In this document: in pieces, positions 31,052-55,352 of the stretch
Layout: each line of letters begins with the position of its first letter
How positions within the stretch are numbered: the stretch's first letter is position 1
DNA from: an uncultured Haliea sp.
Lineage (GTDB): Bacteria; Pseudomonadota; Gammaproteobacteria; Pseudomonadales; Halieaceae
Direction: 5' to 3'
Assembly (NCBI GenBank): GCA_947258585.1
Contig: CAMYIZ010000055.1
Coordinates: forward strand, 1 to 64,000
Length of the DNA: 64,000 bases
Position numbers and translations under genes: made by a program
Notes under the pieces: generated by a model
What the model was told of the DNA's origin: nothing
The model's database searches: none
What the model saw: the letters and a program-made list of their open reading frames with translations, nothing else

Positions 31052-31057
31052 TATACT
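31052..31057 (+). promoter_or_regulatory. Putative -10 element of the lptM-lysA operon
   Basis: A consensus-like TATACT lies 30 bases before the lptM start. A GTGACA upstream is 20 bases away, too far for a good -35. Confidence 0.35.
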
Positions 31058-31086
31058 GCGCCTTTTCCATGCCGGATTCAGCTTTC

Positions 31087-31266
31087 ATGCGCAACCTGTT
31101 GCCCACCACCGCTATCGTCCTGGCGCTCACAGCCCTGTCAGGCTGCGGCCAGACCGGGCCCCTGCAGTTGCCACCCCGGGAGGCGGCATCGCCAGCGGCG
31201 GAGCCACCGCCACCAGCGGGCGACACAGAGACTGCCCCGGCGGCAGCACCGGCCAGTAACGGATAA
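31087..31266 (+). CDS. lptM: LptM (YifL) lipoprotein
   Basis: This 59-residue lipoprotein has signal MRNLLPTTAIVLALTALSGC with the lipid-modified Cys at 20, followed by the hallmark GQTGPLQLPP and a Pro/Ala/Glu tail. LptM assists disulfide maturation and assembly of the LPS translocon LptD-LptE in E. coli. It is the first gene of an lptM-lysA-dapF order seen in many gammaproteobacteria. An ATG 18 bases upstream is possible but would leave a longer charged lead. Confidence 0.9.
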   Translation: MRNLLPTTAIVLALTALSGCGQTGPLQLPPREAASPAAEPPPPAGDTETAPAAAPASNG

Positions 31267-31274
31267 CCCCGATC

Positions 31275-32525: not shown

Positions 32526-32540
32526 GCAGGTGCCGCTGAC

Positions 32541-33371: not shown

Positions 33372-33410
33372 CGCCGCGGTGCGGCAGCAACAACGGAGAG
33401 AAGACAGACC

Positions 33411-40757: not shown

Positions 40758-42440
40758 TCAGTGCGCCGGTGCCACCCCCATGAACTTGCTCTGCACGATG
40801 CGAAACCGGTTGCTGACGAAGGCGAGGTCGGCAAGGCAGGCATTGCCCGCGGGGTTCAGGCCGGTGACGTGGAAATCCGAGTAGGCGGCGGCAAAGTTGA
40901 TCGGCATGCCAGTCAGGTTACAGGCCACCGACGCACCGGCGGCATGGTAGGCGTCCACCGCCCTGCCCAGGAATTCCGGATCCGTGGAGTAGACATGAGA
41001 GGTGATGGCCCCGCAATCGCGAGCATTGCCCGTGGCGTCCTCCAGGCAGGCCTCAGCGCTGTCGTTGGCGATGATAAAGGAGACCGGACCAAAGACTTCC
41101 TGCCGGTACCAGTCCCGATCCGCCGCGGTCGCCGCTATCACCAGCGGTGTGGCCGTGCGGGCGGCGGGGAAGTCCGGGTTGGCGTAGGCTGCGGAGTCGC
41201 GCAGGATCCTGTCGCCGGCCAGCTCGCGATAGCGGTCCACGTTGGCCTGCACCGAGGGGTCGAACAGGGTGCCACACAGGGTCGCCGCACCGCGCGCATC
41301 CGCCAGCCAGTGATCCACCGCGGTACAGATCGCCTGCGCCACCTCCGCGTGGGGGACTGTCTTGCCGGCAACCCGGATTCCCACCGCCGGAATATGGATA
41401 TTCTGCACGCTGGTGCACATCTGCGCCGAGGCCTGGCACAGGGAGTGAGCGATGGCCCGGGCCGTGGCGGTGAGGTCATCGGTGGACTCTACCACCACCG
41501 AGTTGCAGCCCGCGGTCTCGGTATAGACGAGCTTGCCGGGGCAGTTCTGTTCCAGCCAGCTGCCAAAGCGCGGACTGCCGGTAAAATCAATGATGGCCGT
41601 GTCCGGGTGCTGGACCAGCGGCAGGGTAGCCGGCTCCGCGCGGGTGTCCGCCGCCAGGGTTACCAGATTGGGGTCGAAACCGGCCTCCACCAGCACCTCG
41701 CGGCACACCTTCGCCACCATGGCCACCGGCAGGGTCGCCGCCGGGTGCGGCTTGAGCACCACCGGATTACCGGTGGCCAATGACGCGCAGAGGGCCGGAT
41801 AGGTATTCCATAGCGGAAAGGTGGCGCAGCAGATCACCACTCCGATACCGCGCGGCACCAGTCGATAGCGCTTGTCCAGGCTGGCCACGCCATCGCGGCC
41901 GAACTGCCGCTCCCAGCGCGCGGTGGCGGGGACGTCCTGCATGGCCTTGTGGGCATAGGCCAGCGCCTCCAGGCCGCGATCCAGGGCATTGGCGCCACTG
42001 CCGGCGAAGGCCATGACATAGGATTGGCCGGAGGTGTGCATGGTGGCGTGGGCATTTTCGAATAACTGCTCGCCGCAGCGCTGGAGGATTTCCAGGCACA
42101 CACCCACCCGCTCTTCCGGACTGGCAGCGGCCCAGGCGGGGCGTCCGGCATTGATAGCGGGGAACAGGGCGCCGGGGTCCAGCCGCGGGTAGCGCACGCC
42201 CAGGGGCCTGCCGGTGTAGGGCGAGACTTCCTCGCCAACGCGGCCGATCTCGCCGGGCTGCTGCAGCGGAAAGTCCTGACCCAGCAGGGCCTCGAAGCGC
42301 GCCTGCCCGGCGGCGGGCTTTTCCTCACCGTGAATCTTGCTGCTGGGGTTCTCCGGCCAGCCACTCCAGGCGTAGCGCCGGGCGCAGGCATCCAGGGCCT
42401 TCGTCAACAGGTCCTGGTGTTTGTTGAACAGGGCGGTCAT
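40758..42440 (-). CDS. paaN: PaaN-type aldehyde dehydrogenase
   Basis: This 560-residue NAD(P)-dependent aldehyde dehydrogenase resembles PaaN, a ring-opening or aldehyde-oxidising protein linked to phenylacetate degradation. The general base Glu308 is in YTETAGCN and the nucleophile Cys342 in SAQMCTSVQ. The N-terminal 130 residues are family-specific. It lacks the hydratase domain of PaaZ. No other paa genes are seen, so its substrate here may differ. The ATG overlaps the stop of the upstream regulator as ATGA, which suggests that the regulator controls it. Confidence 0.85.
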   Translation of the reverse strand: MTALFNKHQDLLTKALDACARRYAWSGWPENPSSKIHGEEKPAAGQARFEALLGQDFPLQQPGEIGRVGEEVSPYTGRPLGVRYPRLDPGALFPAINAGRPAWAAASPEERVGVCLEILQRCGEQLFENAHATMHTSGQSYVMAFAGSGANALDRGLEALAYAHKAMQDVPATARWERQFGRDGVASLDKRYRLVPRGIGVVICCATFPLWNTYPALCASLATGNPVVLKPHPAATLPVAMVAKVCREVLVEAGFDPNLVTLAADTRAEPATLPLVQHPDTAIIDFTGSPRFGSWLEQNCPGKLVYTETAGCNSVVVESTDDLTATARAIAHSLCQASAQMCTSVQNIHIPAVGIRVAGKTVPHAEVAQAICTAVDHWLADARGAATLCGTLFDPSVQANVDRYRELAGDRILRDSAAYANPDFPAARTATPLVIAATAADRDWYRQEVFGPVSFIIANDSAEACLEDATGNARDCGAITSHVYSTDPEFLGRAVDAYHAAGASVACNLTGMPINFAAAYSDFHVTGLNPAGNACLADLAFVSNRFRIVQSKFMGVAPAH

Positions 42441-43372
42441 ACCGGGTCTCCAATGGTGAAGTCGACGTGGTGGGCGCGCAGCTCTTCGCCGCAGTGGTCA
42501 CAGACCACTTCGCCGTGCAGGTTCTCGCCGCAGACGGTGTGGGTCAGGCACATAGGACGCCCGGCTCCGGTGGGGTCGCACCATTTGTCGCCCCACTGCA
42601 GCAGGGTGAGGAAGTAGGGAAACAGGTCCCAGCCCTTCTCGGTTAACTCGTAGGCGTAGCGCACCGGACGCTGCTGATAGGGCCTGGTGGCGAACACCCC
42701 CTGTCGCACCAGGTAGCGCATCCGGTTCGAGAGGATATTGGTGGCCACAGGCAGTTCCCGGTGGAATTCATCGAAGCGCTGCAGGCCGTGGAAGGCCAGG
42801 GCAATCACGTTGGCAGTCCAGCGGTCGCCCACCAGGTTGATCAGGTTGCGATAGACGCTGTGCTCCCCGGGTACCTCGTGGGCGGACAGGGAGGATCGCC
42901 GGCGCACCTTCTTGTCGCGGACGTCCCGGGTTGCACCGGGGCCGGGATGATAGCTGACATCCCTGCCGTCCACATCGCGACGGCAGCTGCCACAGCGCAG
43001 GCGCGGCTGCAGGGACTGGCCGCAGCTGCGGTGCAGCAGATGCACCTTCCCCGCGGGCGGCGGCGGGTGATGCTTCTCTTCCCAGACAACCGCCATCAAC
43101 GCGTGTTGATAGAGGTCTATCGACTTGCGGGTCAGGTGATAGACAGGATGGCGCGGATCCCCGTCCGAGGAGCGCTTGCGCAGGCAATCCATGGACTGCA
43201 GCCATTTCAACCGATTGGACAGCACCCCGCGGGATACGCCGGTGGCCTCGAGCATCCCGCCGAAGGTATTGATACCCCAGAACACCTCCTGGATGATCAA
43301 TATGCACCATTTGTCACCAATCTGGTCCAGGGCACGGTTGATGGAGCTGGCCCGGGTTATCAGCTGGCTCAT
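42437..43372 (-). CDS. Double HxlR-domain transcriptional regulator
   Basis: This 311-residue protein holds two HxlR winged-helix domains in tandem. Each has the core DKW or DRW then a wing-helix segment (GVLSNRLKWLQ; NILSNRMRYLV). Each is followed by a short Cys-rich module with His-x3-CG, then C-x2-C (HRSCGQ...CGSC and HTVCGE...CDHC), which could bind zinc. Single HxlR proteins have about 110 residues and act as dimers, so this is a fused pseudo-dimer. It is coupled to paaN by a 4-base overlap and probably senses an aldehyde or CoA intermediate. The effector is unknown. Confidence 0.85.
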   Translation of the reverse strand: MSQLITRASSINRALDQIGDKWCILIIQEVFWGINTFGGMLEATGVSRGVLSNRLKWLQSMDCLRKRSSDGDPRHPVYHLTRKSIDLYQHALMAVVWEEKHHPPPPAGKVHLLHRSCGQSLQPRLRCGSCRRDVDGRDVSYHPGPGATRDVRDKKVRRRSSLSAHEVPGEHSVYRNLINLVGDRWTANVIALAFHGLQRFDEFHRELPVATNILSNRMRYLVRQGVFATRPYQQRPVRYAYELTEKGWDLFPYFLTLLQWGDKWCDPTGAGRPMCLTHTVCGENLHGEVVCDHCGEELRAHHVDFTIGDPV

Positions 43373-43421
43373 ATCGGGTACCCCACCATCATCCCGCGCT
43401 TGCAGAACAGGACTCGAACAG

Positions 43422-44312
43422 TCAGCTGCACCGGAAACCCAGCGCCAGGGAGGGATTCTTGTCGCGACTCTGGCCCAGACTGATGTTGCCGCTGCCGCGC
43501 AGCAGCAGCTCATCGCGGTGCAGGAACACCGGTTCATCGTCGCCCAGGCAGACGAAGGTACCGTTGGTGGAGGCGTCGGACAGCACAAAGAATCCCCGCC
43601 GGTACTCGATGGACGCATGGTGGCGGGACACCCATTCGGCCTCTACCACCAGATCCGCAGAGGTATCCCGGCCCAGCATCAGTGGCTGGCTGGTCTCATC
43701 CATGGTCACGGCAAGCCCATTGAGCACAAGCTCCAGGCTGGTATCGTGATGCACCTCGGCCAGCGATTCCAGCCCCTGGAAGGTCGTGATGTTGGTGGTG
43801 TCCTCCTGCCAGATCACATCGACCAGATCCAGCAAGGCGTGCTTGCCAGGGACATGGGTCTTGCCCAGATTGCGTGTGCGCAGCCCACTGGAGGCGGACA
43901 GATTGCGGACGGAATCGGCCGTGGTGACAATCTGCTCGCGCTTGGCCAGGCTGGCCATGCGTGCGGCCGTGTTGACCGCGGCGCCAAAAACGTCGCCACC
44001 GTCGTGCAGTACATCGCCGTGATGCAGGCCGATCCGCAGCGCCAGGCGCTCGCGCCTGCAGCTCTCCTCGTCGCTCACCCGACGCTGCATTTGCACCGCG
44101 GCTTCGATGCCGCTTTCAATGGTGGGGAACGTCGCCATGATTTCGTCACCGATGGTCTTGACCACCTCCCCACCGTGGCTGGCAACAACGTCGGCACAAA
44201 GGTTAAGCAGGCCCAGGATCGTCTCACGCGCCGACTCATCGCCCCGCTGCTCAAACAGGCGCGTGCTGCCGCTGACATCGGCAAAGACAATGGTGAGAGC
44301 TTCACTAGTCAT
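43422..44312 (-). CDS. Class III nucleotide cyclase with FHA domain
   Basis: This soluble protein of 296 residues has an N-terminal class III adenylate/guanylate cyclase domain. It includes VFADVSGST with metal Asp12 and KTIGDEIMATF with Asp56. The C-terminal forkhead-associated domain (about 205-290) has the phosphothreonine-binding pattern GRD, SRHHA and NGT. The final residues are short and basic. It would make cAMP and dock on a phosphorylated partner. No kinase or cNMP receptor gene adjoins. It stands between the regulator and the TonB receptor in the same direction. Confidence 0.85.
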   Translation of the reverse strand: MTSEALTIVFADVSGSTRLFEQRGDESARETILGLLNLCADVVASHGGEVVKTIGDEIMATFPTIESGIEAAVQMQRRVSDEESCRRERLALRIGLHHGDVLHDGGDVFGAAVNTAARMASLAKREQIVTTADSVRNLSASSGLRTRNLGKTHVPGKHALLDLVDVIWQEDTTNITTFQGLESLAEVHHDTSLELVLNGLAVTMDETSQPLMLGRDTSADLVVEAEWVSRHHASIEYRRGFFVLSDASTNGTFVCLGDDEPVFLHRDELLLRGSGNISLGQSRDKNPSLALGFRCS

Positions 44313-44378
44313 AATCCCGGATGATAGGGGAAAGCGAGCCCTGCCTCCACTGCTGCAGAGCGGCAAGGCAACATTGCC

Positions 44379-44415
44379 GGGACAAGCTCCCGCGCCACGG
44401 CGGGCTGCTTGTCCC
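44379..44415 (-). terminator. Stem-loop after the TonB receptor gene
   Basis: A 9-bp perfect inverted repeat GGGACAAGC / GCTTGTCCC (44379-44387, 44407-44415) contains an inner CCCG/CGGG stem. A second small hairpin GGCAA/TTGCC follows on the minus strand. There is no T-run, so it may stabilise the 3' end or be a Rho-assisted stop. Confidence 0.45.
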
Positions 44416-44423
44416 GCGCGCCA

Positions 44424-46745
44424 TCAGAAACTCTTGGTCAGGGTGACGCCGGCCGTGCGCGGGGGCATGTAGTACTCCGACGTAACACCGGTGGGGTCCA
44501 CGATGCGGTTGGTTACCTGCAGCTCATCGTTGAGGTTCTTGCCCCAGAGGTCAATGGCCAGGGAGCCGTCAGCACTGGTCCAGCTGACACTGGCGTCGAT
44601 CAGCTCAACACTGCTCTGGCGTTCTACCGGCCGATTCTGGGGCCCGGTGTAGTACTCGTCCTTCCAGCTGTAGCTGAGGCCGAAATCCAGGGCACTGCCA
44701 TTGCCCAGGTTCACACGGTAATTGGCGCTACTGGTGAGCGACCCATCCGGGGCAAAGGGAAGGTCGCGATCGGCGAGGTCCAGACCGTTGGAGTTGATGA
44801 ACTCCTTGAAGGTGGCGTCGCTGTAGTTGTAGCTCGCGCTCAGGGTGAAATTCTCAAAGGGCACGACGTCGATGGAGGCCTCGTACCCTTTGGACTCTGC
44901 CTGGGCGTTCAGCAGTACCAGCAGGAAGCGGCTGTTGAGCTCAAATACCTGCAGATCTTCATAGTCCATGTCGTAGTAGGACAGGTTCAACTGCAGGCGG
45001 CGGTCCCACCAGGAGGACTTCATGCCCACTTCAATATTCTCGACAATTTCCGGATCCACCGGCTCACTGGCCACGCTGGCCAGGTTGGTCTGGGACTGGA
45101 AGGCACCGCTCTTGAAACCCTCGGCGTAGGTGGCGTAGAACATCAGGTCGTCAGTTGGCCGCCAGGCCAGGGACAGCTTGTGGGTGACCTCCGACCAGGA
45201 GTCCTCGGCAAACACCGGCGCCGCGAAGGAAGGCAGTATCAGCGGTACGCCGGAGGGGGTGGTGCCCAGCAGGTCGATGGAGTTCTGGGTGATCTCCTTT
45301 TCGTCCTCGGCCCAGCGCACACCGTAGGTCAGGGTAAGCTGCTCGGTGAGATCCCAGTCCGCCTGACCGTAGACGGCGTAGCTGGTGGTGGTGTTGTCCT
45401 GGGTGAACAGCACGTCGCCGACCCCGGCGAGCCCCAGGCCCTGCAGTGGCGTGCTGTACTGGGTGTAGAACTCCTCGGCCCGCTCCACATCCTCCTCCAT
45501 GAAGAACACCCCCGCCAGCCAGTTCAAACGCTCGCTGTTGCCGGCGAGACGGAACTCCTGGGAAATCTGCGAAGCCTCTTCCTCCGCACCGTTGACCACA
45601 TTGCCGGGGGCAGTGAAGAAGCCGGGGGGCAGCGGTACCCCTGGGGGTGAAGGCGCGCTGAGGTTATTGAGTGGAATACCGGTCAGATCGTCCACCCAGT
45701 TATAGTCGCTGGAGCGCCAGGCGGTAATGGAGGTCAGGCTCGCCCAGTCGAGGTCAACTTCAAAGCGGGCCATCACCCCTTCGACCACGCGCTTTTGCGA
45801 GGTGTCGAACTGGGAGCTACAGTTGCGCTCATCGGCCATGTAGCGCTCGGACATGCCGATGCGCCAGAACGGGGCCAGACCGGCGATTGCCGAATCCACA
45901 TTCTGGATGTGGCGACACGGGCCGTTGGTCTCGTCGCGAGCATAGTCGGCCGTCAGCAACAGGTCCACGCGTTCGCTGATATCGAACATCAGCTGGCCCC
46001 GGGCGCTGACTGCGCGGGCGTCGTCCAGTTTTTCACCCGCGTTGCCGGCGCCAAAGCTGCCGCCAATGATCGGGCTGTTGGAGAAGTTGCCGGAGGTGGT
46101 GATTTCGCCGGGGGTGATCACGTTGCGACCGTAGCCCTCCCGGTCGCGGAATGAGTAGACTAGCTTGCCGGCGACCTTGTCGCTGAGGCCGCCGCTCGCC
46201 AGCCCCTGGAAATGACGCAGGTCGTCACTGCCAGCCGAGACCCGCACCCGAAGCTCGGTTTCCTGGGAGGGGCGCGAGGTGACAATGTTGATCGCGCCGC
46301 CGTTGGTGTTCTTGCCATACAGGGTACCCTGGGGACCGCGCAGGATTTCCACCCGCTCCAGATCAAACAGGTCGAAACCCACACCGCCGGTGCGTCCGAT
46401 GTAGACCTCATCCAGGAACACCCCCACTGCCGGATCGCTGCCAGCGGAGTCCGAGCTGTTGCCGATACCGCGGATGTAGATGCGCGGCTCGCCGATGCTG
46501 AACTGGTTGTAAGTCAGCCCTGGGGTGCGGAAGGCGATATCGTTAAGGCCGCTGATCTTGCCGACCTCGATATCATCGCCGGCGAGCGCGGCAACCGACA
46601 GAGGTACATCCTGGATACTCTGGGCACGCCTTTCGGCGGTCACCACGACCTCTTCCAGCTGCTGCTGGGCAGAGGCCACCGTGGGCAGAGCCAGGGGGAG
46701 TACGGCGAGGGCGTGGATGGCGATGCGCAGTGCGTTGGTAGTCAT
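44424..46745 (-). CDS. TonB-dependent outer-membrane receptor
   Basis: This 773-residue protein has signal peptide ALRIAIHALAVLPLALPTVASA, a TonB-box-like EEVVVTAERR, a plug domain (LNDIAFRTPGLTYNQF; RVEILRGPQGTLYGKN) and a C-terminal 22-strand barrel ending RTAGVTLTKSF. The plug wording is that of the large receptor group for non-siderophore substrates in sphingomonads and marine gammaproteobacteria. It lies next to, and in line with, the dioxygenase gene, so import of that enzyme's substrate is a reasonable inference. ATG 46745 is chosen over one 24 bases upstream. Confidence 0.92.
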   Translation of the reverse strand: MTTNALRIAIHALAVLPLALPTVASAQQQLEEVVVTAERRAQSIQDVPLSVAALAGDDIEVGKISGLNDIAFRTPGLTYNQFSIGEPRIYIRGIGNSSDSAGSDPAVGVFLDEVYIGRTGGVGFDLFDLERVEILRGPQGTLYGKNTNGGAINIVTSRPSQETELRVRVSAGSDDLRHFQGLASGGLSDKVAGKLVYSFRDREGYGRNVITPGEITTSGNFSNSPIIGGSFGAGNAGEKLDDARAVSARGQLMFDISERVDLLLTADYARDETNGPCRHIQNVDSAIAGLAPFWRIGMSERYMADERNCSSQFDTSQKRVVEGVMARFEVDLDWASLTSITAWRSSDYNWVDDLTGIPLNNLSAPSPPGVPLPPGFFTAPGNVVNGAEEEASQISQEFRLAGNSERLNWLAGVFFMEEDVERAEEFYTQYSTPLQGLGLAGVGDVLFTQDNTTTSYAVYGQADWDLTEQLTLTYGVRWAEDEKEITQNSIDLLGTTPSGVPLILPSFAAPVFAEDSWSEVTHKLSLAWRPTDDLMFYATYAEGFKSGAFQSQTNLASVASEPVDPEIVENIEVGMKSSWWDRRLQLNLSYYDMDYEDLQVFELNSRFLLVLLNAQAESKGYEASIDVVPFENFTLSASYNYSDATFKEFINSNGLDLADRDLPFAPDGSLTSSANYRVNLGNGSALDFGLSYSWKDEYYTGPQNRPVERQSSVELIDASVSWTSADGSLAIDLWGKNLNDELQVTNRIVDPTGVTSEYYMPPRTAGVTLTKSF

Positions 46746-46768
46746 AGAAGCCTCGTGGAGAGTTATCA

Positions 46769-46796
46769 ATTATAGTGGCTTGCATTAACGAACCAA
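46769..46796 (-). promoter_or_regulatory. Putative promoter of the TonB receptor gene
   Basis: On the minus strand TTGGTT (46791-46796) and a consensus TATAAT (46769-46774) are 16 bases apart, about 24 bases before the start codon. Confidence 0.6.
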
Positions 46797-46815
46797 GTTT
46801 ATCGCAACATTGGCG

Positions 46816-46852
46816 AAAAACAAGGTCAGGGCGCGCGGAATCCACGCGGCCC
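46816..46852 (-). terminator. Possible terminator after the dioxygenase gene
   Basis: On the minus strand a stem of GGGC/GCCC plus GCGTGG/CCGCGC with one bulged C and an ATT loop (46829-46852) is followed eight bases later by five T. It would separate the dioxygenase and receptor transcripts. Confidence 0.4.
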
Positions 46853-46859
46853 GATTCAA

Positions 46860-48380
46860 TCAGGCGCGATACAGATCCTCCCCTCGCGCCCAGGTAGCGT
46901 GGAAACCATAGGGCACCCGGTGCGGCATCCGCACCCGCGCTACCGGCCCCCGCTCAATGTCCCTGGCATCAAACACCAGGCAGTGTGACTGCCAGCTGTT
47001 GCTGTCTGTGGCCAGGGTGATGACATAGCCGTCGTCTTCGCCGGAGGCCGCAGTCGCGCCCCGGCGCGGCGCGAACACAGCCTCGCTGCCGAACACCCCC
47101 TTGCCGTAGTCCCACTGCCAGCGCTGACCGGTTTCGTTGTCATACTTGACCAGCCCTGTGAACCGCAGGGTGTAGCCGCCCTCATGGTGCAGCGGAATGC
47201 GCTGGTGGTAGGCGTAGCGACTCTTGCGTCCGTGGTAAAGCGGGTTGGTCTTGTTGAACTCGGTGTTGAGATCGTCGATCGGCCCCTCCCGCACCTCACC
47301 CGTGCGCAGGTTGAAGCGCCACCGATAGTTGTTCGCCTCCAGCCGCATATAGGCCAGCATTGAAGCCAGCTCGCCCTCGCCGGGCTGGGCATCGGGCATC
47401 GGGTTGGTGGAACGGCAGCCATCCATGATCACCCAGTCGCCCTCTTCCCAGCAGTTGCTGGTATGGAGGATGTAGCAGGGTTCGCACTCGAACCAGCGCA
47501 CGTCGCTGCCGGCACCGTGGCGCGGGATCAGGCCGAAACGGGTGGGGATGTCGGTGTGAAACGTCAGTACCCGGTAACCGTGGCGGCGCAGGACATTCAT
47601 GTCATGGAAGAACGGCAGGTCGTGCAGGATCGTGTAGTGGGTGGTAAAGCCAATATCGTGGGGCAGCCGCGGGCCCGGCAGGTCGATCTCCACCTCGTGC
47701 AGGAGTTTGCCGCTGGGGTCCGCCACGCCATAGGTCATGTAGGGCGGCTCATCGCCGTAGTCAAAAAACAGCAGCTCACCCGTGGCCAGGTCGACCTTGG
47801 AGTGCGCCGACATGCGCCGCTGCTGGCGCCCCTGCAGGTCGTAAAAGCCCTGGGTCGCAAGATTGTGCGCATCCAGGCGGTAGGGATGACCGGCGTTGTA
47901 CCAAAGGCTCATCAGGTCGCCGTTGTAGATAAAGATGTCGGTGTTGGAGGTGTCCTTGATACCGAAGGGCGACACGCTGTAGTCGAACGGACCCATCACC
48001 CCGGGTGAGACCGATCGACCGTCGGCTCGCTCTCCCTGCAGGGCCACGGTGTTCACATAGCGGTTGCGATAGGCCGCCTGGCCGTCGCGGAAGTACACCC
48101 CGTGCACCATGCCGTCACCATCAAAGGGGTGGTAGCGGTTCTTGGGCTTGAATACCGGATTGGGGCCATTGCGGAAATAGGCGCCTTCAAGGTCCGACGG
48201 CAGTTCCCCCTCCACGGCGAGGCCCGCGACATCCAGCTCGTTCGTAGTCGGGGCGTAGACCCCGTGCAAGTAGGGATTGTCCAGGGTGTAGATCCACGGC
48301 TGGGTGTCGGAAAACTCGGCGACCCCGCCGATACACTGGTCGACCGAAGGGTATTCACTGACTTTGCTGAGGCTCTGCAT
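46860..48380 (-). CDS. Carotenoid-cleavage / lignostilbene-type dioxygenase
   Basis: This 506-residue non-heme iron dioxygenase splits a conjugated C=C bond. The four iron-binding histidines are all present at H193 (SAHSKVD), H241 (LPHDIGF), H306 (ILHTSN) and H494 (YGFHATW), with spacing very close to the cyanobacterial apocarotenoid oxygenase. The N-terminal GAYFRNGPNPVF and FDGDGMVH are family marks. Substrates could be a carotenoid, apocarotenoid, stilbene or related isoprenoid. GGGGAG stands before the ATG at 48380. Confidence 0.93.
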   Translation of the reverse strand: MQSLSKVSEYPSVDQCIGGVAEFSDTQPWIYTLDNPYLHGVYAPTTNELDVAGLAVEGELPSDLEGAYFRNGPNPVFKPKNRYHPFDGDGMVHGVYFRDGQAAYRNRYVNTVALQGERADGRSVSPGVMGPFDYSVSPFGIKDTSNTDIFIYNGDLMSLWYNAGHPYRLDAHNLATQGFYDLQGRQQRRMSAHSKVDLATGELLFFDYGDEPPYMTYGVADPSGKLLHEVEIDLPGPRLPHDIGFTTHYTILHDLPFFHDMNVLRRHGYRVLTFHTDIPTRFGLIPRHGAGSDVRWFECEPCYILHTSNCWEEGDWVIMDGCRSTNPMPDAQPGEGELASMLAYMRLEANNYRWRFNLRTGEVREGPIDDLNTEFNKTNPLYHGRKSRYAYHQRIPLHHEGGYTLRFTGLVKYDNETGQRWQWDYGKGVFGSEAVFAPRRGATAASGEDDGYVITLATDSNSWQSHCLVFDARDIERGPVARVRMPHRVPYGFHATWARGEDLYRA

Positions 48381-48411
48381 GCTGATCTCCCCGTAACCGG
48401 ATCTTGGGCCG

Positions 48412-48439
48412 ATTATAGATAGCAAGTTTTTTTATGCAA
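48412..48439 (-). promoter_or_regulatory. Promoter of the dioxygenase gene
   Basis: On the minus strand TTGCAT (48434-48439) and consensus TATAAT (48412-48417) are 16 bases apart, with a predicted start about 25 bases before the ATG. A direct repeat GCAAGTT (48422-48428 and 48436-48442) overlaps the -35. Confidence 0.65.
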
Positions 48440-48497
48440 GTTAAAATGTCACGGCAACGAAACAACTCACGGACAGAGCTTGCGGGCACTACCGCGC

Positions 48498-48525
48498 TTG
48501 GCTAGACTTCAAGTCTATTTATAAA
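48498..48525 (+). promoter_or_regulatory. Promoter of the SDR-to-thiolase run
   Basis: TTGGCT (48498-48503) and TATAAA (48520-48525) are 16 bases apart. The spacer is filled by a palindrome that is listed next. The predicted start is only about ten bases before the GTG. Confidence 0.6.
48503..48517. promoter_or_regulatory. Perfect 15-bp palindrome, likely operator
   Basis: TAGACTTCAAGTCTA is a perfect inverted repeat of 7 bases around a central C. It sits between the -35 and -10 of the SDR promoter, where a bound dimeric regulator would block RNA polymerase. The regulator is not identified. Confidence 0.75.
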
Positions 48526-48541
48526 AGTAACGGGTGACAGA

Positions 48542-49450
48542 GTGGCAGGTAAAGGACGGAGAGAGGCAGGGAGCCTCGGCGGCGACCTGGCGGGCAAGGT
48601 CGCCATTGTCACCGGTGCCGGCAAGGGCCTGGGCCGGGCCTATGCCCTTGAACTGGCATCCCGCGGCGCCCGCCTGGTCATCAACAATCGCTGTCACCCC
48701 GGCGACAGCGTCCGCAGTGCAGACGCCGTGGCAGGAGAAGTCGTGGCGGCCGGTGGCCAAGCCATCGCCGACTACAGCGGCGCGGAGAACCCAGGCTGTG
48801 GTGAGCAACTGCTGTCCCTGGCACTGGCACAGTTTGGCCGCCTGGATATCGTGATCGCCAACGCCGGCGTCTCGGAAGCCACTTCCTTCCACAAGCAGTC
48901 CCTCGACGAGTTCCGTCGAATCGTGGAGATCAACCTGATGGGGACCGCGCATCTTCTGCACCCCACTTTTGCCCACCTGTACCACCAGCGCAGCGGCGCC
49001 ATCGTGGTCAGCAGTTCAGCGGCGGGCCTGTATGGCGAGCACGGACTGCCGGCCTACTCCGCGTCCAAGGCGGCCGTCATCGGACTGTGCCAGGCGCTTG
49101 CACTGGAGGGTGCATCCCACCATGTGCGGGTAAATGCTATAGCGCCCTTTGCCAACACCGCCATGACCCGGGAGAGCCTGCCCTCTGCGCTGTGTGAGAC
49201 CCTGAGCCCGGCGGCGGTGGCGCACGTGGTGGCCTGGTTGGTCGGCGAAGGTTGCGACCTCAACGGCGAGACCCTGGTGGCGGGCGGGGGTAATATGGCC
49301 CGGGCGCGTGCTCTGCTGAGCGAGCCGGTTACCACCGGCAGCATGCCAGCTGAACTGGCCGCAGCCTGGTCCAGACTGCGGCCACCGGACCGGGACTCCG
49401 CATCGGCGGTGGCGATGTTCATGGACTTTGCCGGGAGCCTGCAATCGTGA
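48542..49450 (+). CDS. Short-chain dehydrogenase/reductase
   Basis: This 302-residue SDR has nucleotide-binding TGAGKGLG at 24-31, NAG in IVIANAGVS, and the catalytic Ser, Tyr172 and Lys176 in SSSAAGLYGEHGLPAYSASK. It resembles the dehydrogenase domain of multifunctional beta-oxidation enzymes (17-beta-HSD4 type), which oxidise 3-hydroxyacyl-CoA or alcohols. The start is GTG. The stop overlaps the next gene, so it heads a co-translated run. Confidence 0.88.
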   Translation: MAGKGRREAGSLGGDLAGKVAIVTGAGKGLGRAYALELASRGARLVINNRCHPGDSVRSADAVAGEVVAAGGQAIADYSGAENPGCGEQLLSLALAQFGRLDIVIANAGVSEATSFHKQSLDEFRRIVEINLMGTAHLLHPTFAHLYHQRSGAIVVSSSAAGLYGEHGLPAYSASKAAVIGLCQALALEGASHHVRVNAIAPFANTAMTRESLPSALCETLSPAAVAHVVAWLVGEGCDLNGETLVAGGGNMARARALLSEPVTTGSMPAELAAAWSRLRPPDRDSASAVAMFMDFAGSLQS

Positions 49451-50250
49451 TGGACCTGTTGATACTGTTCACAACAACTTTTACTGTCGCCCTCGCTGCC
49501 GCTATTTTGCTGTGGCTGGCTAGCATCCCCCTGCGGGACGCTAGCATCATCGATATGTTTTTCGCCCTCATCATAGTCGCCATCACTGCCAACTGCCTGC
49601 TGCTGGCGCCCACCATCGGCGGTCTGCAGTGGCTGTTGGCGGCGATGGTCGGATTGTGGGCGCTGCGAATCACCGCCTATCTGATAGCCCGCAACTGGGG
49701 CCACGGAGAGGACCCGCGCTACAGCAAATTACGCGGTTGGGTAAACAACGAGCGGGCCTTTATCTGGCTCAGCTTGCGCAAGGTATTCCTGCTGCAGGCG
49801 CTGGTACTGTGGCTGGCCTCGCTGCCAATACAGGTGGGCATGCAGCTGGGCGCCGGCTCCCCCGGCTGGCTGGCAATCGCCGGCACCGCCATCTGGCTGC
49901 TGGGACTGGTGACGGAAACCTTCGCCGACCGGCAACTGCAGCAATTCAAGGCAGACCCCGTCAACAAAGGCCAGGTCCTGTGCACGGGGCTGTGGCGCTA
50001 CTCCCGCCACCCCAACTATTTCGGCGAACTGTGCGTCTGGTGGGGGATCTGGCTGGTGGCCTGCGAGGTGCCGTTCGGCTTCCTGACCATTATCGGCCCG
50101 CTGGCCTACAGCTACCTGATCGTCAACGTCACCGGCCAGCGCACCCTGGACAAGAAGCTGGCGCGGGAGAAGCCCGGCTATGCCGAGTATATGGCCCGCA
50201 CCAGCGGGCTGGTGCCGCTGCCGCCGCGGCGCCAGCAGGGTATCCCCTGA
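49450..50250 (+). CDS. DUF1295 / steroid 5-alpha-reductase-like membrane protein
   Basis: This protein of 266 residues has about six transmembrane helices. The C-terminal half carries GLWRYSRHPNYFGEL and GYAEYMARTSGLVP, the DUF1295 pattern related to steroid 5-alpha-reductase and isoprenylcysteine methyltransferases. Members reduce double bonds next to carbonyls in steroids or other isoprenoids. The start may be ATG 49450 or the GTG three bases before, which overlaps the SDR stop. Confidence 0.85.
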   Translation: MDLLILFTTTFTVALAAAILLWLASIPLRDASIIDMFFALIIVAITANCLLLAPTIGGLQWLLAAMVGLWALRITAYLIARNWGHGEDPRYSKLRGWVNNERAFIWLSLRKVFLLQALVLWLASLPIQVGMQLGAGSPGWLAIAGTAIWLLGLVTETFADRQLQQFKADPVNKGQVLCTGLWRYSRHPNYFGELCVWWGIWLVACEVPFGFLTIIGPLAYSYLIVNVTGQRTLDKKLAREKPGYAEYMARTSGLVPLPPRRQQGIP

Positions 50251-50326
50251 CTCCTCCGCTCTTGCCTGCGGTGGTTATCGCCCGTACCATAGTGGTCTTT
50301 TAATAAAAGTCACCCCCGGAGACCCC

Positions 50327-51241
50327 ATGCCACGTGCCCTGTCCCAGCTGAGAATCCCCGTCTTCCAGGCCCCCATGTTCCTGCAATCGGGACCAGAGAT
50401 GGTCATCGCCAGCTGCAGGGCCGGGATTGTCGGCACCTTCCCCTCGGTCAACGCCCGCACTGTCGAGGAACTGGAAAGCTGGCTGCAACGGATTACCGCC
50501 GCGACCGGCGGCGAGCAGGACGGCCCCTGGGCTATCAACCTGATGATGCACCGCTCCAATACCCGCCGCTTCGAGGACCTGGCGCTGGCGGTGAAATATC
50601 GCGCGCCGCTGGTGATCTCTGCGCTGGGCAGCCCGAAGGAAGCCATCGACGAAGTGCACGCCTATGGTGGCAAGGTGTTTGCCGATGTTATCGACACCCG
50701 CTTTGCCGCCAAGGCGGTGGAGGCCGGGGTGGACGGCCTGGTGCTGGTCGCCGCCGGCGCCGGTGGCCACACCGGGCAGCAGGCAGGCTTTGCCTTTGTC
50801 GAGGAAGTGCGCCAGTTCTGGGACGGCGACATCGTGCTGGGCGGTGGTATTTCCAGCGGCCGCGGCGTGCGGGCGGCACAGGTGCTCGGCGCCAATTATG
50901 CCTACATGGGCACCCGCTTTATCGCCACCGAGGAGAGCATGGCGGTGCCGGAGTACAAGCAGATGGTGGTGGATGCCACCGGCGCAGACATCATTTGCTC
51001 GGACGCGCTCACCGGAGTCAAGGCCAACTGGCTCCGGGCCAGCCTGGTTGCAGCGGGCTACGACCCGGCTAATATGCCCTCAGGCGCCAAAATCGATATC
51101 GCGGCATCCACCAGCGATGCCAAGCGCTGGCGGGACGTCTGGTCAGCGGGTCAGGGCGTGGGCGCCATCAAGGACATCCTGCCGATTGCCGCGCTGGTCG
51201 ATCGGCTGGAAACGGAGTACCGAGCCGCCTGCGAGGGATAG
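50327..51241 (+). CDS. Nitronate monooxygenase / FabK-like flavoprotein
   Basis: This 304-residue FMN protein has a TIM-barrel of the NMO/2-nitropropane dioxygenase family. It opens with IPVFQAPMFLQSG and has AAGAGGHTGQQ with the phosphate-binding Gly region, GGGISSGRG, and YMGTRFIATEES. In catabolic clusters such proteins often act as enoyl or other reductases rather than on nitro compounds. The ATG has CCCGGAG seven bases upstream. A 76-base gap separates it from the preceding gene. Confidence 0.85.
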   Translation: MPRALSQLRIPVFQAPMFLQSGPEMVIASCRAGIVGTFPSVNARTVEELESWLQRITAATGGEQDGPWAINLMMHRSNTRRFEDLALAVKYRAPLVISALGSPKEAIDEVHAYGGKVFADVIDTRFAAKAVEAGVDGLVLVAAGAGGHTGQQAGFAFVEEVRQFWDGDIVLGGGISSGRGVRAAQVLGANYAYMGTRFIATEESMAVPEYKQMVVDATGADIICSDALTGVKANWLRASLVAAGYDPANMPSGAKIDIAASTSDAKRWRDVWSAGQGVGAIKDILPIAALVDRLETEYRAACEG

Positions 51242-51244
51242 ATC

Positions 51245-52924
51245 ATGCACACCAGTTCCAGCGCCCGGATCCGGGCCCTCACCGACGCCGGCTACTGGGG
51301 CCGGGAAACACTGCACAGTATTCTTGCAACACAAGTGGCGGACAGGGGCGACAGCACCGCGCTGGTGGACCAGCCGAACAAGGCCGAGCTCACCGACCTG
51401 CCGGTCCACCGACTCAGCTTCGCCGACCTCGATGTGCTCAGCGATGGCCTGGCGGCCCGGCTTCTGGGGCTGGGCCTGCAGCACGGCGACAGGTTGCTGG
51501 TGCAGCTGCCCAACATCACCGAGCTGGTGCTCTGCTACTACGCCGCCAGCAAGCTGGGGGTGGTCATTTCCCCCATTCCCATCCAGTATGGCGGCCACGA
51601 GATCGCGCGCTTCGCCGACACTCTGAAGCCGTCGGCCATGCTGACGCTGGGGCGCTTCCGGGATATCGAGCTGGCAGCACAGGCCCGCCAGGCCCTGACG
51701 GATGTGCCGGTGTGGACCCTGGGCGCTGACCTGCAGTGCGAACCCGTCACCGACCCGGTGCTGCTGTCGAATTATCATGAACACCGGAACCAGCACCCGG
51801 ACGATGCCAACGCCATTCTCACCATCGTCTGGACCTCCGGCACCACCGGCACCCCCAAGGGCGTGCCCCGCTCCCACAACATGTGGCGGGCGATGGCGCG
51901 CAATACCATGGCAGCGGGGGACTACCAGCCCGGCGAGACCCTGCTGGTGCCGTTCCCGCTGGTGAACATGGCCGCGCTGGGAGGGTTCCTGTTTCCCTCG
52001 GTGATCAACGGCTGCAAGCTGGTGCTGCACCAACCGATGGACCCGGCGATGTTCCTGCGCCAGATCCAGGAGGAGCAGGTTCATTTCACCATCGCGCCGC
52101 CGGCCCTGCTGAACCGGCTGGCGCAGCAGCCCGCCCTGTGGGCGCAGTGCGACTTCAGCAGCATCCGCGCCTTCGGCTCGGGCTCGGTGCCCCTGTCGCC
52201 CGCGATGATCGCGGTGATTGAAGGCGAATACGGCAAACCCATTATCAACTTCTACGGCTCCAACGAAGGTATCAGCCTGTTTTCCACCCCGGACGTGGCG
52301 CCGACACCCGAGTATCGCGCCACGATGTTTCCCCGCTTCGGGGTGCCGGGTATGCCCTGGCGGAGCCACTCCCACGAGTCCATCACCACCCGCGTTATCG
52401 ACCCCGACACCGGTGCGGAGATCACCGCCCCCGGGGTCGCGGGGGAACTCTGCATCGGTGGCCCCGCCGTGTTCGATGGCTACCTGGACCACGACGGCGC
52501 CGGTGTTTTCACCGCCGATGGCCTGTTTCGCACCGGCGACCTGGTAGAGATCTGCGGCGAACCGCCCAATTACTACCGGATCGTCGGCCGCTGCAAGGAC
52601 ATCATCAACCGCGGCGGCATGAAGATCTCCCCCGCGGAGCTGGACATCCTGCTCGAAGGCTTCCCGGGGCTGGCGGAGGCCGCCGTGTGCGCCTACCCGG
52701 ATCCGGATCTGGAGGAGAAAATCTGCGCCTGCGTAGTGCCGGTGGAGGGCGAAGCGGCACCGGCACTCGAGACCCTGTGCAGCTGGCTGCAGGACAAGGG
52801 CATCGCCAAATTCAAACTGCCAGAGAGGCTGGAAGTATTCAGCGCCCTGCCACGCAACCCGGTAGGCAAGGTGGTGCGCGGAGAACTCCAGCAACAGGTC
52901 AAGCAACGAGGACAGACACCATGA
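51245..52924 (+). CDS. Acyl-CoA synthetase (AMP-forming)
   Basis: This 559-residue ANL-family enzyme activates a carboxylic acid to its CoA thioester. The AMP-binding loop TSGTTGTPKG is at 197-206. Later motifs are YGSNEG, GLFRTGDLVE, and NRGGMKISPAELD with a C-terminal catalytic Lys in LPRNPVGKVVR. Sequence style is between cyclohexanecarboxylate/2,3-dihydroxybenzoate-type and fatty-acid ligases. It starts 3 bases after the flavoprotein gene and overlaps the thiolase start (ATGA). Confidence 0.92.
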   Translation: MHTSSSARIRALTDAGYWGRETLHSILATQVADRGDSTALVDQPNKAELTDLPVHRLSFADLDVLSDGLAARLLGLGLQHGDRLLVQLPNITELVLCYYAASKLGVVISPIPIQYGGHEIARFADTLKPSAMLTLGRFRDIELAAQARQALTDVPVWTLGADLQCEPVTDPVLLSNYHEHRNQHPDDANAILTIVWTSGTTGTPKGVPRSHNMWRAMARNTMAAGDYQPGETLLVPFPLVNMAALGGFLFPSVINGCKLVLHQPMDPAMFLRQIQEEQVHFTIAPPALLNRLAQQPALWAQCDFSSIRAFGSGSVPLSPAMIAVIEGEYGKPIINFYGSNEGISLFSTPDVAPTPEYRATMFPRFGVPGMPWRSHSHESITTRVIDPDTGAEITAPGVAGELCIGGPAVFDGYLDHDGAGVFTADGLFRTGDLVEICGEPPNYYRIVGRCKDIINRGGMKISPAELDILLEGFPGLAEAAVCAYPDPDLEEKICACVVPVEGEAAPALETLCSWLQDKGIAKFKLPERLEVFSALPRNPVGKVVRGELQQQVKQRGQTP

Positions 52925-54153
52925 GCCACGTCTACATACTGGGCGGCGCCCAGACCGACTTCAGCCGCAACTGGGCCCGCGAGGGCCTGGAAATCTACGA
53001 CATGTTCACCGAGGTCCTGGCCGATGCAGTCGCCGATGCCGGCATAGAACCGGGCCAGATCGAGGTAGGCCACGTCGGCAATTTCGTCGCCGAGCTATTC
53101 GCCCGCCAGGGCCAGCTCAACGGCTTTTTCGGCCAGGCCTACCCGGAGCTGGCGTCGATACCGACCTCGCGCCACGAAGCGGCCTGCGCCTCCGGTTCCA
53201 TCGCCATGCTCAGCGCCATGCGCGACATCGAGGCCGGCCACTACGACGTCGCCTGCGTACTGGGCCTGGAATACATGCGCAACGTCAACGGCAAGACCGG
53301 CGCCGAGTACCTTGGCACCGCCGCCTGGCAGGGCCACGAGGCCACCGACTGCGAGTTTCCCTGGCCGCACATGTTCGACCGCATTACCCGCGAGTACCAG
53401 CAGCGCCACGGCATCGACAGCGAGCATCTGGCGCGTATCGCCGAGATTAATTTCGGCAATGCCAAATCCAACCCCAATGCCCAGACCCGGGACTGGCAGT
53501 TCCCACCCGGCTGTTTCAGCCAGGATGATGAACTCAATCCGGTGATCGAGGGGCGGATGCGGAAGATGGATTGCGGCCAGATCACCGACGGCGGTGCCTG
53601 CGTGATCCTCGCCAGTGAAAAGGCCGCGCGCGAGCACGCAGCCCGGCAAGGCATCGCGCTGGCAGATATTCCGCGGATCAAGGGCTGGGGCCACCGCTCC
53701 GCGCCCATCCTGCTGGAGCGCAAGCTGCAGCTGAGTGCAGGCCAGCCGCTGCTGTTTCCGCATATCCGGGCGATGATGGAAGACGCCCTGCGCCGGGGCG
53801 GTTTCCAGCAGATCACGGATCTGGACGGCCTTGAGACCCACGACTGCTTTTCAGTCACTGAATACATGGCCATCGACCACAGCGGCCTCACCGCACCGGG
53901 TGAAAGCTGGAAGGCGGTAACCGAGGGTCGTATCACCCGGGACGGCGACTTTCCCATCAACCCCAGCGGCGGCCTGATCGGCCTCGGCCATCCGGTAGGT
54001 GCCACCGGGGTGCGCATGGCGCTGGACTGTGCCCGCCAGGTGACGGGCCGCGCCGGCAGCTATCAGCTGCCCAGGGCCGAGAACATGGCCACCTTCAATC
54101 TCGGCGGCAGCGCCACCACCTGTGTCAGCCTGATTGTCGGGGTCGGGGCATGA
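52921..54153 (+). CDS. SCP2-type thiolase
   Basis: This 410-residue thiolase-fold protein has nucleophile Cys89 in HEAACASGSIAML, His in ETHDCFSVTEY, and GLIGLGHPVGATG. The end NLGGSATTCVSL is as in sterol-carrier-protein-2 type thiolases, which accept branched or ring-bearing acyl-CoAs. It overlaps the ligase before it and the next thiolase by four bases each, so all three are co-translated. Confidence 0.9.
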   Translation: MSHVYILGGAQTDFSRNWAREGLEIYDMFTEVLADAVADAGIEPGQIEVGHVGNFVAELFARQGQLNGFFGQAYPELASIPTSRHEAACASGSIAMLSAMRDIEAGHYDVACVLGLEYMRNVNGKTGAEYLGTAAWQGHEATDCEFPWPHMFDRITREYQQRHGIDSEHLARIAEINFGNAKSNPNAQTRDWQFPPGCFSQDDELNPVIEGRMRKMDCGQITDGGACVILASEKAAREHAARQGIALADIPRIKGWGHRSAPILLERKLQLSAGQPLLFPHIRAMMEDALRRGGFQQITDLDGLETHDCFSVTEYMAIDHSGLTAPGESWKAVTEGRITRDGDFPINPSGGLIGLGHPVGATGVRMALDCARQVTGRAGSYQLPRAENMATFNLGGSATTCVSLIVGVGA

Positions 54154-55352
54154 AAACCACATTGATCTACGATGCCCTGCGCAGCCCGCGCGGACGCGCG
54201 AAGGAAGGTGCCAGCCTCAACTCCCTGACCCCGCAGGCGCTGCTGAAGCAGCTCTACGCGGCGCTGGTCGAGCGCACCGGGCTTGCGCCTGCGGAGGTGG
54301 ACGACGTTATCCTCGGCTGCGTCACCCAGCAGGGTGAGCAGGCCGGCAATATCGCCAAGAGCTCGACCCTGTACGCGGGCTGGCCGGGCTCGGTGCCGGG
54401 CCTGACGGTCAATCGCTATTGTTCCTCCGGCATCGACGCCATGGCGCTGGCGGCGCTGAAGGTTGGCGCCGGGCAGGCCTCTGTCACCGTCGCAGGTGGT
54501 GTAGAAATGATGTCGCGGGTGCCGATGCTCTCGGACCAGGCCCGGGTTTTCACCGACCCGCAGTTCGCCGCCCAGTGCCGGATGCTGATGATGGGCAACG
54601 GCGCCGACCTGATCGCCACGCTGCACGGTGTCAGCCGGGAGGAGGCCGACGCGGTGGCCCTGAGCAGCCAGCAGCGCGCGGCCCACGCCCGGGAACAGGG
54701 CTGGTTCAGCTCCATCGTGCCGATAACCCTCGAAGACGGCACCCGTGTCAGCGCCGACGAGTGCATCCGCCCGGATACCACGGCTGCGCAGCTGGCAGAG
54801 ATGCCCGCAGTGTTCGCCAAGGCCGGCGCCGCCGGCATCGATGCCTTCCAGCTCGCGGCTTACCCGGCGTTACAGCAGGTCAATCACATCCACACGCCGG
54901 GCAACTCCCCGGCCATGGCCGATGCCGCCGCCCTGGTGCTGATTGGCGATGAGACCTGGGGCGAGCGCAACGGAGTGCGACCCCGGGCCCGCATCGTAGC
55001 CAGCGCCACAGTCAATGCCGACCCGCTGCAGGTGTTGAGCGGCTGCATCGAGGCAACGCGCAAACTCATGGCCGACCAGAACCTCAGCGCCGCGGACATC
55101 GACCTGTTCGAAATCCACGAGGCCTTCGCCGCCATCAGCGTGGTAGCCATGCGCGAGCTGGATATCCCCGATGACAAGCTGAACGTGAACGGTGGGGTGA
55201 TCGCACTGGGACACCCCATGGGCGCCACCGGCGCGATCATGGCCGGCACCCTGCTGGACGAGCTGGAGCGGCGCGACCTGCAGTGGGGCATTGTCTCCGC
55301 CGCAGGCGCCGCCGGCACCGGCAGTGCGCTGCTGCTGGAACGGCTGCCCTAG
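54150..55352 (+). CDS. Acetyl-CoA C-acyltransferase (thiolase II family)
   Basis: This 400-residue thiolase has nucleophile Cys91 in NRYCSSGIDAM, HEAFA in place of the usual NEAFA, and the active-site His in ALGHPMGATG. The C-terminal position where thiolases carry the second catalytic Cys (C-x-G-G-G) reads SAAGAAGTG, with Ala384 aligned to Cys. The enzyme may therefore work differently or need its partner thiolase. The stop shares CTAG with the convergent lipid kinase gene. Confidence 0.9.
   Translation: MKTTLIYDALRSPRGRAKEGASLNSLTPQALLKQLYAALVERTGLAPAEVDDVILGCVTQQGEQAGNIAKSSTLYAGWPGSVPGLTVNRYCSSGIDAMALAALKVGAGQASVTVAGGVEMMSRVPMLSDQARVFTDPQFAAQCRMLMMGNGADLIATLHGVSREEADAVALSSQQRAAHAREQGWFSSIVPITLEDGTRVSADECIRPDTTAAQLAEMPAVFAKAGAAGIDAFQLAAYPALQQVNHIHTPGNSPAMADAAALVLIGDETWGERNGVRPRARIVASATVNADPLQVLSGCIEATRKLMADQNLSAADIDLFEIHEAFAAISVVAMRELDIPDDKLNVNGGVIALGHPMGATGAIMAGTLLDELERRDLQWGIVSAAGAAGTGSALLLERLP

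Follow-up and report, generated by a model that had tools for sequence, protein, structure and literature searches.

We analyzed a 64,000-nucleotide stretch of DNA from an uncultured Haliea sp. (contig CAMYIZ010000055.1, hereafter the window) and found a gene island (positions 40758-55352) that contains a four-histidine dioxygenase of the carotenoid-oxygenase family. As read from sequence, much of its gene set recurs across Proteobacteria beside dioxygenases of one clade, its two divergent arms share a 17-bp element, the clade has lost a second-sphere glutamate, and a thiolase-fold protein of the set has lost the CxG cysteine. The chances appear about even that the island forms a single regulon for breaking down a compound that is taken up from outside and has a cleavable C=C bond; an isoprenoid, such as an apocarotenoid or a xanthophyll fragment, is the likeliest candidate.

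Organization and recurrence of the gene island

A preceding sequence-only reading of the window had described a TonB receptor and the dioxygenase diverging from genes for a short-chain dehydrogenase/reductase (SDR), a DUF1295 protein, an NMO-like flavoprotein, an AMP-forming acyl-coenzyme A (CoA) ligase, an SCP2-type thiolase and an odd thiolase. Pfam and NCBIfam matches of the window proteins confirmed all eight in place, with TonB barrel and plug, RPE65, adh_short, DUF1295, NMO, AMP-binding and Thiolase_N/C above the Pfam cut-offs. The minus strand encodes the TonB-dependent outer-membrane receptor (44424-46745; barrel plus plug; presumed start ATG 46745) and the dioxygenase (46860-48380; RPE65 421 bits, cut-off 27), for which ortholog N-termini favor a start at ATG 48380. 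Across a divergent gap of 161 bp, the plus strand encodes the SDR (48542-49450; adh_short 142 bits), the DUF1295 protein (49447-50250; PF06966 211 bits), which is a putative reductase weakly similar to steroid 5-alpha-reductases (PF02544 30.6 bits), and an NMO/FabK-like flavin mononucleotide (FMN) flavoprotein (50327-51241; PF03060 82 bits). The last is a putative enoyl- or dienoyl-CoA reductase, and its best solved relatives are FabK-type enoyl reductases. Further downstream are the ligase (51245-52924; PF00501 213 bits), the SCP2-type thiolase (52921-54153; NCBIfam PRK06289 609 bits, cut-off 375) and the odd thiolase-fold protein (54150-55352). The genes indeed overlap or nearly abut except for one gap: the SDR/DUF1295, ligase/SCP2-type and SCP2-type/odd thiolase pairs each overlap by 4 bp, the NMO and ligase genes are separated by 3 bp, and the DUF1295 and NMO genes by 76 bp. 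The island is wider than these eight genes, as the minus strand continues beyond the receptor with a protein of adenylate/guanylate cyclase and FHA domains (43422-44312; PF00211 and PF00498), a tandem-HxlR transcriptional regulator (42437-43372; two Pfam HxlR stretches; presumed start) and a PaaN-type aldehyde dehydrogenase (40758-42440), which scores above the PaaN equivalog cut-off (TIGR02288 623 bits, cut-off 579).

Orthologs were searched with an alignment of eight orthologs, and the best 80 of 167 confirmed loci, from named genomes, were analyzed. Among these 80, the closest named dioxygenase relative belongs to Haliea sp. E1-2-M8, and most of the near ones are from Halieaceae. Over 81 loci (the 80 plus the window, many of them short contigs), the dioxygenase occurs 81 times, the SCP2-type thiolase 57, the thiolase 51, the ligase 45, NMO and HxlR 37 each, PaaN 21, the receptor 15, and SDR and DUF1295 12 each; only these ten families reach at least 12 of the 81 loci. 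At the 41 orthologous loci with full 10-kb flanks, the SCP2-type thiolase is found at 34, the thiolase at 32 (one of them, L060, being an ordinary NEAF/CxG enzyme), the ligase at 30, HxlR at 28, NMO at 24, PaaN at 15, the receptor at 11, DUF1295 at 9 and SDR at 7. At least four of six core genes (SCP2-type thiolase, thiolase, ligase, NMO, HxlR and PaaN) are present at 29 of these 41 loci, a grouping that exceeds chance. The sequence-only reading was to be refuted if most genomes had dioxygenase homologs without the run from SDR to thiolase. The outcome is mixed: the two thiolases and the ligase accompany most orthologs, whereas SDR and DUF1295 do not, and the PaaN-type dehydrogenase and the tandem-HxlR regulator are more conserved beside the dioxygenase than these two. 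Halieaceae and SAR92 genomes have retained the set, one of the latter being 2.3 Mb in size.

A survey of 398 genomes across the phylum revealed 16 places in 14 genomes with a clade-profile match of E <= 1e-178; the next matches follow after a gap, at 1e-106. Leaving aside genomes G000 and G015, the remaining 14 places were covered by thirteen stretches of ~20 kb. With thresholds of 30% identity and 60% coverage, these stretches contain HxlR in 8, NMO, the SCP2-type thiolase and the thiolase in 7 each, the ligase in 6, DUF1295, which thus reappears in other groups, in 5, SDR and PaaN in 2 each, and the receptor in 1. The survey had also yielded 26 dioxygenase places with lower scores, and 18 of these served as controls, four of them from genomes that also hold a clade member and one ending at a contig end. 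They gave NMO once, SDR twice and no other gene of the set, and all 18 control dioxygenases keep the glutamate. Outside the order, two or more of NMO, ligase, SCP2-type thiolase, thiolase and HxlR accompany the dioxygenase in 9 of 13 clade stretches versus 0 of 18 controls (Fisher 3.5e-5, a value that treats related genomes as independent and is not used as a probability).

Plasmids of Cupriavidus necator NH9, C. basilensis and Sphingopyxis granuli RW412 also carry the dioxygenase, ligase, NMO, a thiolase-like gene and HxlR together, in a changed gene order. Their clusters further include an SDR, an aldehyde dehydrogenase of a different kind, hydrolases and carriers, and either a porin or a TonB receptor. 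A Polaromonas plasmid dioxygenase lacks the glutamate as the clade does, and near it only weak or partial ligase matches come from the set. A Nostoc plasmid match was rejected as a clade member, for it is a glutamate-bearing enzyme; its gene (L134, 9173-11455) is annotated over 2.3 kb, which exceeds a single domain. The NMO gene was also rejected as a sole marker of the cluster, since the plasmid NMO stretches L135 and L137 show other contexts. Membership of the PaaN-type gene in a phenylacetate operon is not supported either: the PaaA and PaaC matches lie on contig 47, the window is on contig 55, and near the PaaA/PaaC genes there is only a 26% PaaN match over 178 residues.

A search of the open-licence literature, as far as titles and abstract openings go, turned up no bacterial pathway built from these genes, in agreement with the sequence-only reading, and no description of this dioxygenase clade or of a cysteine-less thiolase group. 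The word thiolase does not occur in the available portions of two papers on lignin dimers (PMC12997858, PMC12607616).

Dioxygenase clade and thiolase-fold proteins

The dioxygenase is a member of the RPE65 superfamily with four iron-binding histidines (H197, H245, H310 and H498) that are invariant in two alignments. Two of the three second-sphere acids are retained, E378 and E437 corresponding to Glu353 and Glu418 of the lignostilbene dioxygenase (LSD) LSD4. By contrast, the position of LSD4 Glu135 is Tyr in 27, Trp in 2 and Phe in 1 of the 30 clade rows (two of which are identical), compared to Glu in all 14 other rows (11 bacterial ones and three solved enzymes). The following column holds Asn, Gln, Leu, Arg or Ile in the clade, and the window dioxygenase reads W164-Y165-N166 in this region, departing from the full set of three acids of the superfamily. 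The loop here is one residue longer in the clade than in the solved enzymes, and the gap is placed differently in different alignments, with no clade row acidic at either column. The plasmid copies, which are more distant, carry Ser followed by either Gln or Arg at the two positions in question. The 30 clade rows form one side of a tree branch with support of 100/99. LSD4 Glu135 is presumably the counterpart of Glu150 of ACO, and Glu150 mutants of ACO appear among the titles of PDB entries. In the available excerpts of three papers, the three second-sphere acids are described as conserved and needed (PMC8191317, PMC12051055, PMC5133782).

The AlphaFold2 model of the dioxygenase has a predicted local distance difference test score (pLDDT) of 91.5. 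A Foldseek search against solved structures gave CCD1 as the top match, followed by LSD structures, and the best phmmer matches are also CCD1 chains. The enzyme shares the carotenoid-oxygenase fold and the four histidine ligands of iron with CCD1, NCED/VP14 and ACO (PF03055), but its clade differs from them in the lost glutamate, at an identity of 25-34% in the fold search. Its top NCBIfam score is for the 8'-apo-carotenoid 13,14-cleaving dioxygenase (NF052295), with 288 bits against an equivalog cut-off of 675. Two loci hold a pair of such enzymes: on the C. basilensis plasmid pRK1-2 (L131, 14001-21582) two clade-type dioxygenases are near neighbours, and a separate porin, carriers and hydrolases go with the second; a single cluster in L175 (5991-13574) has two clade dioxygenases with a ligase and NMO in between.

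The two thiolase-fold proteins of the island differ in their motifs. The protein encoded at 52921-54153 has the features of SCP2-type thiolases, namely the loop cysteine of HDCF, the nucleophilic cysteine and GHP; among its homologs, HDCF and GHP are present in 57 of 57 rows each and the nucleophilic cysteine in 56, with one gap. According to excerpts of one study, HDCF might supply in SCP2-thiolases the cysteine that CxG supplies elsewhere (PMC7682436). In contrast to known SCP2-type thiolases, no DUF35 or SCP2 domain occurs among the annotated island proteins. The HDCF motif upholds the earlier suggestion that this enzyme suits branched substrates.

The second protein (54150-55352) resembles FadA and Rv0859, and its best equivalog is PRK08242 (449 bits, below the cut-off of 514). 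It keeps the nucleophilic C91 (CxS) and the GHP histidine H355 of classical thiolases, both invariant in a chosen 16-row alignment that leaves out L119 and L043; in the whole set of 59 rows, the nucleophilic cysteine is present in 58 with one gap and the histidine in 57 with two gaps. However, it lacks both the CxG cysteine (SAAGAAG) and the asparagine of NEAF (HEAF). The CxG cysteine is kept by almost all thiolases other than the SCP2 type, in the part of the paper available (PMC7682436). It is missing in 52 of the 57 rows that reach the site (two of 59 fall short), and the five rows with a cysteine comprise three ordinary thiolases that lie near the locus (L060, L068 and the second one of L095) and two cluster copies with an altered motif (L119 and L043). 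To call the protein a thiolase would thus be premature.

The loss follows the dioxygenase clade. In the host genome, all 11 thiolase paralogs read keep the CxG cysteine and the NEAF motif (13 places, the other two being partial pieces on contig 48). In the 398 genomes, a profile built from the cluster copies was used and the 30 best matches were read: nine lack the cysteine, all in genomes with the dioxygenase clade, whereas the other 21 keep it and lie in genomes without the clade; among these 30 matches, 5 of the 14 clade genomes show no copy. In five genomes whose dioxygenase neighbours lack core genes or include only an ordinary thiolase, three carry a cysteine-less copy elsewhere; in the other two, where three places were read per genome, no such copy appeared.

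The closest precedents for reuse of this fold are the thiolase-fold aldolases Sal and Ltp2, in which, from the accessible sections of the report, the fold minus a thiolase cysteine serves another C-C cleavage (PMC12329534). The same sections place them in the SCP2 branch with YDCY/YDHF motifs and a DUF35 partner, Sal having Gly for the nucleophilic cysteine (PMC12329534). The window protein differs in being FadA-like, keeping Cys91 and carrying HEAF, and no DUF35 protein was found among the annotated window proteins. Thiolase relatives in L043 and L252 have NESF and a cysteine in an altered CGGAG motif, and this form is perhaps intermediate between ordinary and cysteine-less thiolases. In Pseudomaricurvus alkylphenolicus (L124, 5270-8519), the cluster has a 4HBT thioesterase on top of the core set, along with an extra copy each of the ligase and an SCP2-like thiolase.

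Shared upstream element and surroundings of the island

Alignment of the divergent gaps of the window and eight relatives revealed a 17-bp operator-like element in two copies, element B before the dioxygenase (48425-48441, minus strand) and element A before the SDR (48512-48528, minus strand). A third, weaker copy with two mismatches (50294-50310, minus strand) sits in the 76-bp gap before NMO. At up to two mismatches the 64 kb of the window give three matches (48425, 48512 and 50294) versus 0.04 expected, of which solely the third is independent, the pattern having been derived from the first two. At up to one mismatch, ACTTNNATAAANANACT has two sites in the genome, elements A and B. Of the 96 matches across the 80 loci, 78 lie no more than 250 bp upstream of a cluster gene, in zones that make up 80,803 of 1,383,758 bases (5.8% of the DNA). 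They are assigned to the dioxygenase (40), NMO (13), PaaN (8), SDR (7), DUF1295 (3), the receptor, thiolase and ligase (2 each) and HxlR (1). The element before the dioxygenase goes with an HxlR gene in the locus, 24 of 28 loci with HxlR versus 4 of 13 without it, in counts that include related genomes and are not independent.

The element shared by both arms speaks for their co-regulation, and the tandem-HxlR protein probably controls both through it, a pairing of regulator and element that we infer from their co-occurrence. Upstream of the dioxygenase, a promoter-like pair of TATAAT (48412-48417, minus strand) and TTGCAT (48434-48439), 16 bp apart, overlaps element B, TTGCAT agreeing with TTGACA at three of six positions. 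A promoter scan of the divergent gap reported no site at this pair and nothing usable, and an inverted-repeat search of the gap gave nothing usable either.

The neighbour of the island at its PaaN end is a protein of the Mg-chelatase family (39245-40747); past the opposite end come a lipid kinase, PhoX and a UvrD-type helicase. Within it, the cyclase/FHA gene sits between the HxlR and receptor genes; of 98 loci compared, 3 (L032, L050 and L093) have such a gene close to the dioxygenase, and it is probably lineage-specific rather than core. Upstream of the island lie a tyrosine recombinase of the phage-integrase family (33890-35032) and an open frame of 919 codons (31047-33806) without a Pfam match at 0.001.

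Proposed pathway and competing readings

We propose that the TonB receptor would import the substrate, of which the four-His dioxygenase would cleave a C=C bond in an O2-dependent reaction. The PaaN-type dehydrogenase may convert the cleavage aldehyde to the acid, the AMP-forming ligase would activate it with CoA, and the FMN protein, plus DUF1295 where present, could reduce a double bond. The SDR would then oxidize the hydroxyacyl group and the SCP2-type thiolase would take off 2-methyl-branched units, with the cysteine-less protein possibly acting on a CoA thioester in one more step, at a C-C bond or by acyl transfer. We infer the identity of the substrate, every reaction and their order. 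The sequence-only reading had suggested such a unit from import to thiolysis. One functional unit is supported, with genes that would serve uptake, cleavage by oxidation, conversion of the aldehyde, activation with CoA and C-C bond breakage, but a plain second thiolase as its last gene is not supported as such. Altogether, that reading was correct and understated in what it observed, and its interpretation, partly supported here, was right in outline, the substrate still being a candidate.

The host genome (4.19 Mb, 96% complete) gave no match to phytoene/squalene synthase (SQS_PSY), so that a carotenoid-type substrate would come from outside; synthesis of retinal for a rhodopsin, or cleavage of self-made carotenoids, was rejected for the same reason. 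An isoprenoid is favored by the HDCF motif of the SCP2-type thiolase, by DUF1295 and by retention of the set in SAR92 genomes. Annotation of 20 chosen cluster neighbours added LEH/SnoaL-type proteins in three clusters (L172, L174 and L179). Taken alone, an apocarotenoid or isoprenoid as the substrate class falls somewhat short of an even chance.

Several observations weigh against the isoprenoid regulon. No core gene is nearby in 5 of the 41 full-flank orthologs, and the Halieaceae and SAR92 genomes are related, so their counts are not independent. Three of the 13 survey stretches have no gene of the set and a fourth has HxlR alone, and the Cupriavidus and Sphingopyxis plasmid clusters gave no match to the SCP2-type thiolase or PaaN. 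The reversed control of ACTTNNATAAANANACT likewise has two genome sites at up to one mismatch, and at two mismatches the genome has 40 element sites versus 37 for the reversed control, in a scan with a slightly looser last base; an attempt to find missing pathway genes through the element failed for this reason, and the element points to no further genes. Neither acyl-CoA dehydrogenase nor enoyl-CoA hydratase is among the ten families at no fewer than 12 of 81 loci; one enoyl-CoA hydratase gene occurs in L175. The fold search puts carotenoid and stilbene cleavers close together, and the fold cannot separate the two activities, because CCD1 and then LSDs are its top matches. Finally, tannase-family esterases occur in three clusters (L124, L036 and L177), the nearest solved relatives of the L036 protein being MHETase and feruloyl esterases, and the plasmid clusters contain PcaD-like hydrolases (below the PcaD cut-off), major facilitator superfamily (MFS) carriers and porins. 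These proteins would suit an ester or lactone of small size that may be aromatic, and carotenoid fragments are not supported as the settled substrate. Xanthophyll end groups include ester, epoxide and lactone, which an esterase, an epoxide hydrolase and a lactonase would also fit.

The same proteins would suit a regulon for an aromatic ester or alkene, such as a hydroxycinnamoyl ester, a stilbenoid or a phenylpropene, in which the acid or phenol would be released by an esterase and the alkene of the side chain split by the dioxygenase, leaving the rest of the side chain to the aldehyde and CoA steps. The PaaN-type dehydrogenase would fit as well, as would the tripartite tricarboxylate transporter (TTT) binding proteins and the one Rieske oxygenase of the plasmid clusters. 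The lignostilbene dioxygenases LsdA, LSD4 and NOV1, which are bacterial and catabolic, share the fold of the window enzyme. In LSD, Tyr101 and Lys134 bind the 4-hydroxyl of the substrate, according to excerpts of PMC8191317. The window enzyme lacks this pair as well as the Glu135 equivalent: Lys134 aligns with Trp164 (Tyr165 under the other gap placement), and the Tyr101 region is not conserved. It also scores far below the LSD equivalog cut-offs (244 versus 800 and 203 versus 650), and two thiolase-fold enzymes would be needless for a benzaldehyde product. The missing pair weakens stilbene-type cleavage, yet we retain the aromatic route as a rival, albeit a rather unlikely one.

A pathway for the side chains of steroids or cyclic terpenoids, in which the dioxygenase would attack an alkene of the side chain or of a ring, could draw on the SCP2-type thiolase, the weak Steroid_dh similarity of DUF1295, the SnoaL/LEH proteins and a CoA-transferase III in L181. 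NMO-like, SDR, ligase and thiolase genes also stand together in the catabolism of 3aα-H-4α(3'-propanoate)-7aβ-methylhexahydro-1,5-indanedione (HIP) and steroids, compared to which the window set adds a dioxygenase of the carotenoid cleavage dioxygenase (CCD) family, HxlR and PaaN. However, there are no steroid-ring genes among the annotated neighbours (a chosen part of all neighbours), and DUF1295 is missing from 32 of the 41 full-flank loci, which makes this pathway distinctly improbable.

A biosynthetic or signalling route, in which the cysteine-less protein condenses a cleavage product, would be in line with its retained Cys91 and GHP histidine next to the lost CxG cysteine, with the FabK-like reductase, and with the lack of a beta-oxidation dehydrogenase or hydratase among the ten frequent families. 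Nevertheless, those families include no carrier protein or exporter, and the combination of ligase, aldehyde dehydrogenase, full-motif SCP2-type thiolase and TonB receptor or porin resembles uptake and breakdown, so that we regard this route as very improbable. An ordinary neighbourhood without joint function, for which the SDR, DUF1295 and receptor genes beside only 7, 9 and 11 of 41 orthologs might speak, is barely credible: the set reappears beyond the order and, rearranged, on plasmids, none of the 18 controls shows it, and the genes have a common upstream element.

Returning to the isoprenoid regulon, the cysteine-less protein might be a new lyase, for example a retro-aldolase that splits a beta-methyl-branched tertiary 3-hydroxyacyl-CoA remaining once an isoprenoid chain has been cleaved, and would form together with the Glu-less dioxygenase an undescribed route for xanthophylls or apocarotenoids; we consider this quite unlikely. 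For acyclic terpenes, a carboxylase route is known. Were the retro-aldolase reading true, SAR92, Halieaceae and soil Proteobacteria would bypass the beta-methyl block without it.

Carotenoids and their fragments are produced in large amounts by phytoplankton and plants. If the substrate is a carotenoid fragment, the island would give a testable route for its breakdown in marine bacteria. Whatever the substrate, two enzymes of the island depart from the rules of their families: the four-His dioxygenase belongs to a clade without the second-sphere glutamate, which papers present as conserved and required, and the thiolase-fold protein shows a loss of cysteine that accompanies this clade in several families of Proteobacteria.

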